DNA of 64,000 bases, from the NCBI GenBank assembly GCA_016125085.1, contig WGMM01000041.1, forward strand, positions 1-64,000, given 5' to 3'. Positions 14,659-53,960 of the stretch are shown piece by piece. This stretch comes from a bacterium. GTDB taxonomy: Bacteria; Planctomycetota; Planctomycetia; Isosphaerales; Isosphaeraceae. Below the pieces are notes generated by a model. That model saw nothing but the letters and a program-made list of their open reading frames with translations. It was not told the origin of the DNA and ran no database searches. The position numbers and the translations under genes are program-made. How positions within the stretch are numbered: the first letter of the stretch is position 1; every line of letters starts with the position of its first letter.

Positions 14659-15013
14659 GGTTCTTCAGAGATTCCCGTGGGTGAACGTCGAATTCGGTTT
14701 GCGTCAGGAGATCATCGCATCTTCTCACGAAAACGACATCCGCTGCATTACACCGAAACTCCGCGATCGCGGTTTCGAACTTCGATCATCGAAATCGACC
14801 TGAAAGGTCGAAGGTCAATAGCCCAGGGTGAAACCCTGGGAATTCGTAAGCCAGCCATTGGTACAGCAACCTGAAAGGGTGCAGGAAACCCTCGTTTTCC
14901 CCAAGATAAGCGCAATTCATGACCTGCGGCCTTTCAGGCCGCAAGGCATTTTGCATCTCGATCGCATTCCCCGGGTTTCACGCGGGGCTATTGACCCACC
15001 GCCCTTTCAGGGC
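14659..15013 (+). repeat. Copy A of a ~355 bp hairpin-rich intergenic element
   Basis: Nearly identical by eye to the reverse complement of 53606-53960; six GAA/TTC-loop hairpins. Confidence 0.93.
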
Positions 15014-15189
15014 GATCCACCGGCAAGGTGAACGATACTCCAATGATTCCGAAACGCCGATTCGTGTGCAATTCGCATCCAAACCATGGGAGCCATCGCG
15101 AAATCGACAATCGACAAACTACGAAAATCCCTTATGAACCCCGAATGTTTATGCAGGTTCCAATTCGACGCAACTCGGCGAACTATCGG

Positions 15190-15218
15190 TAACGAGCTGG
15201 AAGCGTCAGCGACGGAAA
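15190..15218 (+). repeat. REP-like short repeat, forward copy
   Basis: AACGAGCTGGAAGCGTCAGCGACGGAA; matches the reverse complement of 15315-15343 and 133-159. Confidence 0.6.
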
Positions 15219-15314: not shown

Positions 15315-15343
15315 TTTCGTCGCTGAAGCTTCCGGCTCGTTTA
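15315..15343 (-). repeat. REP-like short repeat, inverted copy
   Basis: Reverse complement TAAACGAGCCGGAAGCTTCAGCGACGAAA. Confidence 0.6.
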
Positions 15344-53271: not shown

Positions 53272-53605
53272 GATTTTATCCTCGAGGGGAGTCGATTCGG
53301 AGGATCACCCGGGATTTCCCGAATGACGGCAGGGTTCGACCGATTCGGTCGCATACAGGCGGGGCAATTCCCAGAATTACAGCAGGCAGGAGTAGCCCGG
53401 TCAACCCTCAACCGGTTCGGACAATCGGGTCGAAAGTGGAAAAGGGGCAAGGGGGCTCTGTCGAAATCCATGTAGAAAAGGGTTCATCAGGAAATTCCGT
53501 GGGCTGGTTATCCTTCATTCCGCGATCGATCTCATGAATGAATGTCAATCGCACTCGAATCGGCTTTCAGAATGGGTGACATATCGCTCTGCCAGCCTGG
53601 TATTC

Positions 53606-53960
53606 GCCCTGAAAGGGCGGTGGGTCAATTGCCCCGGGTGAAACCCGGGGAATGCGATCGAGATGCAATATTTCTTGCGGCCTGAAAGGTCGCAGGTCAT
53701 GAATTGCGATTACCTTGAGGAAAAACGATGGTTTCCTGCACCCTTTCAGGGTGCTGTACCAATGGCTGGCTTACGAATTCCCAGGGTTTCACCCTGGGCT
53801 ATTGACCTTCGACCTTTCAGGTCGATTTCGATGATCGAAGTTCGAAACCGCGATCGCAGAGGTTCGGTGTAATGCAGCGGTTATCGTTTTCGTGAGACGA
53901 TGCGATGATATCCTGACTCATTCCGAATTCGAGTTCACCCCCAATAAACCCTTAAGAACC
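53606..53960 (-). repeat. Copy B of the ~355 bp hairpin-rich element
   Basis: Reverse complement nearly identical to 14659-15013; starts GCCCTGAAAGGGC. Confidence 0.93.

Follow-up and report, generated by a model that had tools for sequence, protein, structure and literature searches.

A hairpin dimer in a planctomycete genome, probably derived from a Y1 element and carried by an ISL3-type MITE

The window, that is the whole stretch of 64,000 nucleotides analysed here, contains two copies, A and B, of a hairpin-rich repeat. Sequence comparison indicates that copy A very probably derives from a Y1 element: it would be a non-autonomous, REPIN-like remnant in decay, lodged within an ISL3-type MITE. 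Its hairpin block would represent the inverted LE and RE of a Y1 element (HUH, IS200/IS605-like, Y---Q--HH) after loss of the gene. The element is presumably mobile. This account would bring three novelties: the identity of Acido-Lenti-1 as transposon ends, a REP type composed of three hairpins, and the uptake of this REP by two or more MITE families.

Architecture and folding of the hairpin dimer

The dimer of copy A (14794-15016) was delimited from its hairpins and from the hits of model R1. Like that of copy B, it is composed of two inverted half-units with three triloop hairpins each, H1-H2-H3 and H3'-H2'-H1'. Model R1, which was trained partly on these same units, matches copy A at 14789-14894 on the plus strand and at 14920-15021 on the minus strand (E ~1e-14). 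Half-unit A1, on the plus strand, starts with the triloop hairpin H1 (CGACCT-GAA-AGGTCG, 14796-14810). The tetranucleotide ATAG (14818-14821) directly precedes the triloop hairpin H2 (CCCAGGGT-GAA-ACCCTGGG, 14822-14840), and H3 follows at 14866-14882. Half-unit A2, on the minus strand, contains H3' (14925-14943), H2' (14969-14987) and H1' (15000-15014). The arms 14813-14846 and 14963-14996 are 88% complementary over 34 nt. The dimer of copy B was located with R1 at 53598-53831. The 64 kb contain 11 GAA/TTC triloop hairpins with a perfect stem of at least 6 bp, four in copy A, five in copy B and two elsewhere.

An earlier note on this DNA had described the six hairpins and the inverted relation of the half-units, and both lie where it had placed them. 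All six stems are present, but two of them are imperfect, with one mismatch each: H3 (GCAACCT-GAA-AGGGTGC) and H2' (CCCCGGGT-TTC-ACGCGGGG). The GAA loop, taken to be constant, is so only in the window's genome; relatives show GGA, GCA, AAC, GTGA and GGAA loops. Folded as single-stranded DNA, region 14794-15016 reaches -65.7 kcal/mol, compared with -32.3 +/- 3.4 kcal/mol for shuffled sequences (z -9.9).

The idea that selection acts on structure is supported by covariation. Among 22 half-units, 14 of 20 pairs changed on both sides and 94% of the cells are paired, compared with at most 6 such pairs and 59% in a control where the partner was slid. Good stems were one criterion in choosing the half-units from outside the window, and this raises the pairing counts; the slid control therefore carries more weight than the raw percentage. 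The window's own copies show paired changes in H1 (A-T to C-G), H2 (A-T to C-G) and H3, and several of their pairs are broken. The tetranucleotide before H2 is ATAG in the window; in relatives, 25 of 31 units have NTAG at this place, and 10 have GTAG itself.

Copies A and B are intergenic. This placement would suit a host-kept bidirectional terminator or mRNA-stability cluster between genes, and such roles have been discussed for REP-type hairpins (PMC3733652). We consider this explanation extremely improbable: no T-tracts follow the hairpins, the neighbouring genes of A and B differ, and the copies are few and decaying in the window's genome. A conserved coding frame, raised in the earlier note as a counter-indication, is rejected because single-base indels separate copies A and B.

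The same half-units at Y1 transposase genes

A DNA search of 99 genomes found the hairpin part, without its flanks, in seven other genomes. In three of these seven (G014, G026 and G059), the hairpins adjoin a Y1_Tnp gene. The flanked transposase has about 150 residues, with MPQS...DERYVWD, HUH and Y---Q--HH motifs, and fits TnpA-Y1 subclass 1.2. The Y---Q--HH motif is present in 24 of 24 extracted proteins, a count that is not independent since the extraction used this motif. The H-x-H, Y, Q and HH residues are also invariant in alignment A5, which includes a Persicobacter protein that the motif did not select.

Using a strict script, H1-H2-H3 triples were found upstream of 11 of the 24 Y1 genes on the plus strand and downstream of 15 of the 24 on the minus strand. 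None occurs in about 38 kb of distant control flank. Model R1, built partly from units of several of these 24 loci, places a unit on both sides of the gene, in inverted order with H1 outside and H3 inside, at 16 of the 24 planctomycete loci; at the other 8, one or both units are missing in the expected order. No unit was detected by R1 at any of 8 other Y1 loci (plasmid IS200 and the genome's own other Y1 genes).

Because several Y1 loci contributed units to R1, a case outside its training is important as independent evidence. The Persicobacter (Bacteroidota) plasmid CP012861.1 encodes a Y1 protein of 45% identity, with units on both sides of the gene. On one side the unit reads CACCCC-aaa-GGGGTG / CGATGGGT-gtta-ACCCATCG / AACCC..GGGTT, with its mirror image on the other side, and the stems are wholly different in sequence. 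On a Bernardetia plasmid, the second match in Bacteroidota, other short hairpins are observed, with no R1 match.

At the genome level, R1 units are present in 54 of the 99 genomes. They occur in all 34 genomes having a clear gene of subclass-1.2 type and in 20 of the 65 lacking it (Fisher p ~1e-12, a value made too optimistic by shared ancestry). Counted by genus, units are found in 25 of 26 with the transposase versus 7 of 28 without. Per-genome unit counts obtained with the covariance model are lower bounds, since it scores few candidates.

The earlier note read the dimer as an ancient inverted duplication of one unit. It is an inverted pair of one unit, but a one-off duplication is less apt than the LE and RE of a transposon without its gene, because the same pair flanks the Y1 transposase genes of relatives. 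Each end would be a three-hairpin composite, with H1 outermost, H2 after NTAG and H3 beside the gene. In relatives, the Y1 gene does lie between two such ends. If it acts like TnpA(IS200) and TnpA(REP), whose biochemistry is known, the transposase would recognise the ends as folded single strands of DNA and mobilise them in that form.

Gene-less forms are also observed. G026 contains about nine of them, dimers some 210 bp long that end at H1 and have unrelated flanks, together with one gene-bearing copy having the same stems. Congeners of the window's organism have tens of gene-less dimers. No matching Y1 transposase gene was found in the assemblies of the window's genome and three congeners (64-94% complete). 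For this reason we regard the dimers of A and B as decaying, and they probably move, if at all, only with their carrier. The genome's five own Y1 genes were rejected as partners, each having different palindromes and no R1 hits. In collections of phages and viruses, searches with the Y1 gene returned only distant IS200 relatives or nothing, and comparing the unit with plasmids at the DNA level gave no match.

The other Y1_Tnp genes of the genome (L012, L013 and L014) have palindromes of their own. At L014 (G000:C24:46407), one three-hairpin block (GGCGGGCT-AGCCCGCC) is repeated on both sides of the gene.

The system resembles REPINs/BIMEs with their RAYT (TnpA-REP) in several respects. Palindromes form an inverted pair that is dispersed without a gene, and a low-copy Y1 HUH transposase gene is flanked by the same units in relatives (the window's genome being without the gene). 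The tetranucleotide before H2 may correspond to the GTAG at the foot of REP hairpins; here it reads NTAG. The system differs in that the unit has three hairpins over about 95 nt rather than one, and in that the transposase is of the Y---Q--HH type of subclass 1.2. Members of this subclass are described as generally lacking IS200-like secondary structures and are listed as having no REP structures (PMC6006769). A three-hairpin composite end would extend the known types of REP and REPIN, and its association is with a transposase subclass in which such ends were not expected. TnpA-Y1 class 3 of Planctomycetes is characterised by the motif YV[VI]xEQ and a CnGA foot (PMC6006769); assignment to this class was rejected, as the proteins here have Y---Q--HH and the foot is NTAG.

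Relation to the Acido-Lenti-1 motif

The earlier note knew of no named family for the element. One exists, Rfam RF01687 (Acido-Lenti-1). The full model matches copy A at 14796-14840 on the minus strand with 36.5 bits, and copy B is matched at 53780-53824 on the plus strand, also with 36.5 bits. These matches emerged at relaxed thresholds, the gathering cutoff being 37 bits. H1+H2 of copies A and B are half a bit under that cutoff, hence related to the family but below its formal limit. Relatives give 38 matches that pass the cutoff (37.2-56.5 bits), located at their Y1-flanking ends and in their gene-less dimers. In G026, G048, G057, G060, G065, G068 and G028, matches above the cutoff are found on both sides of the Y1 gene.

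Acido-Lenti-1 was rated 'probably' RNA and not cis-regulatory, in Acidobacteria and Lentisphaerae, in the original description by Weinberg in 2010 (PMC2864571). According to a 2026 paper (PMC13298647), little is known about the motif, which is still cited as a possible regulator. The literature passages on Acido-Lenti-1 that we consulted contain no link to a transposase. Taken together, the match of H1+H2, its position at Y1 ends and this literature lead us to propose Acido-Lenti-1 as part of a transposon end. From the sequences compared, it most likely corresponds to H1+H2 of a Y1-element end, that is, transposon-end DNA rather than an independent small RNA. The units described here come from planctomycetes and one Bacteroidota plasmid, and the RNA motif was defined in Acidobacteria and Lentisphaerae. 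The likeness concerns H1+H2 of the half-unit, matching the full model with 36.5 bits in the window and up to 56.5 bits in relatives. The difference is that the Rfam model covers two of the three hairpins of one end under an sRNA label, whereas here the motif is a mobile-element end occurring in inverted pairs. Our proposal offers a testable identity for an Rfam RNA family that has been without a function since 2010.

Alternatively, the block could be a functional non-coding RNA, as in Rfam, that mobile elements merely carry or adjoin. The stems covary, Rfam types the family as sRNA, and the 2010 rating points the same way. Covariation of palindromes is, however, equally expected of single-stranded DNA signals. 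Moreover, the motif flanks transposase genes on both sides as an inverted pair and recurs in gene-less dimers with unrelated flanks, and stems are broken in the window copies. We judge the RNA explanation unlikely.

The reading as Y1-element ends can be extended, though we do so tentatively and from sequence alone. Acido-Lenti-1 may not be an RNA family at all but the single-stranded DNA end signal of the widespread subclass 1.2 Y1 transposases, previously regarded as REP-less. Its gene-less dimers may have been captured repeatedly by unrelated DDE-type MITEs. This would give composites with two independent routes of movement, single-strand (Y1) and cut-and-paste (TIR transposase).

Carriers with terminal inverted repeats

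Copy A as a whole is an element of 482 bp on the plus strand (14659-15140), a probable ISL3-type MITE carrying the hairpin dimer. Copy B extends from 53481 to 53960 on the minus strand and is 92% identical to A over 355 bp. Besides A and B, targeted searches of the genome found two shorter relatives, C and D, on other contigs. Homology between the four copies starts and stops at the terminal inverted repeats (TIRs), and their alignment shows an inverted repeat of about 25 bp, GGTTCTTAAGGGATTTCYGYGGGTG, at both ends of each. In copy A, the left TIR is GGTTCTTCAGAGATTCCCGTGGGTG (14659-14683, plus strand) and the right TIR is GGTTCATAAGGGATTTTCGTAGTTT (15116-15140, minus strand). The left TIR is identical at 19 of 25 positions to an end of the intact ISL3 element of G052, a score reached by none of 10000 shuffles; the right TIR matches the G052 ends at 17-18 of 25. 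The conserved flank reported in the earlier note exists, but it is the arm of this TIR element, whose TIRs had been overlooked. The site CCGCGATCGCGG, proposed as conserved within it, did not hold, being changed to TGCGATCGCGG in copy B and to GGCGATCACG in the copy on contig C3. The earlier note also listed, as an argument against the structural reading, a match to a known IS or MITE end; such a match is found in part, in the ISL3-like outer repeats.

The copy on contig C3 has a single hairpin where the block would be, and the congener copy L195 keeps only H1-H2-H1'. Both look like deletions between matching palindromes. No clear target duplication is seen at copies A and B.

When the congener form of the TIR, GGCTCATNCCGGATTYCGGGGTG, was used as a search pattern, 18 stretches were found, of which 16 lie in three MAGs from the window's genus. 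Thirteen congener elements have both ends; they are mostly 314 bp long and most have R1 hits inside. Target duplications of 8 bp, counted at 7 or more of 8 positions, flank 8 of the 13, compared with 2 of 156 for mismatched flanks. The GenBank title of the congener MAGs (loci L188-L205) is Candidatus Kuenenia stuttgartiensis, yet they group with the window's genus; the label is probably an error.

Repeats of GGTTC/GGCTC type border the ISL3 genes of G052, G017, G025 and G011, and in the case of G017 the 8-bp duplication, GGAAATCT, is perfect. An intact ISL3 element carrying precisely the TIR of copies A and B did not turn up in the window's genus. The search for an autonomous partner found ISL3 fragments only, in G000, G002 and G003, and no shared TIR in the stretches examined. 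The single ISL3 gene fragment of the window's genome was rejected as the source of the TIR, since its flanks lack it.

In the window's genus, the dimer would have become the core of TIR-bounded MITEs of ISL3 type, moved by cut-and-paste with 8-bp target duplications; both TIRs and duplications are observed in the congeners. The matching ISL3 ends suggest a carrier transposase of ISL3 type. Copies A and B would be old members of this MITE. The carrier is akin to ISL3-family MITEs by its GGTTC/GGCTC-type TIRs, the 8-bp duplications of the congener copies and the similar ends of the intact G052 element. It differs from them by its core, a Y1-type hairpin dimer instead of a deleted ISL3 gene, and by an autonomous partner with the same TIR not being found in the genus.

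The dimer is not confined to this carrier. The window's own genome harbours another MITE family, with elements of 415-416 bp, the TIR GGGTGTGCC and 8-9 bp target duplications (loci L141, L148, L149 and L152, on contigs C54, C19, C14 and C42 of G000). Its core is arranged as H1-H2-(20-bp central palindrome)-H2'-H1', so that two or more unrelated TIR elements house the dimer. The central palindrome lies at, or close to, the end of several contigs.

These findings bear on the possibility that the 480-bp element is a plain ISL3 MITE whose hairpins arose inside it by an ancient inverted duplication, with no connection to Y1. All four copies are bounded by the TIRs, and in congeners the element moves as one piece; both points speak for such an origin. 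Nevertheless, half-units of the same kind lack these TIRs in G026 and at the Y1 genes of many genera, and they also occur within the unrelated GGGTGTGCC TIRs of the second family with its 8-9 bp duplications. This origin, already contradicted by dimer copies outside any TIR element, is very unlikely. On the favoured reading, nesting of Y1-type ends in at least two TIR MITE families, one of them duplicating its targets in the same genome, would place one mobile signal inside others.

Three further repeats were noted. Loci L160 and L172 (G002 C4 and C11) represent another dimer-bearing element of a congener, which has yet another inverted repeat (CCTCGTTGT...) and may be a third type of carrier. 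L100 (G000:C44:86362) is an element of about 230 bp whose TIRs resemble those of copy A (GGGATATTCAGGAATTTCCCTGGG...) and whose flanking octamers match at 6 of 8 positions; no hairpin dimer was found in it. Just to the right of copy A, regions 15191-15217 and 15315-15341 of the window form an inverted repeat with 89% complementarity (AACGAGCTGGAAGCGTCAGCGACGGAA). A similar core occurs in the relative G014, and the repeat looks like another short dispersed one.
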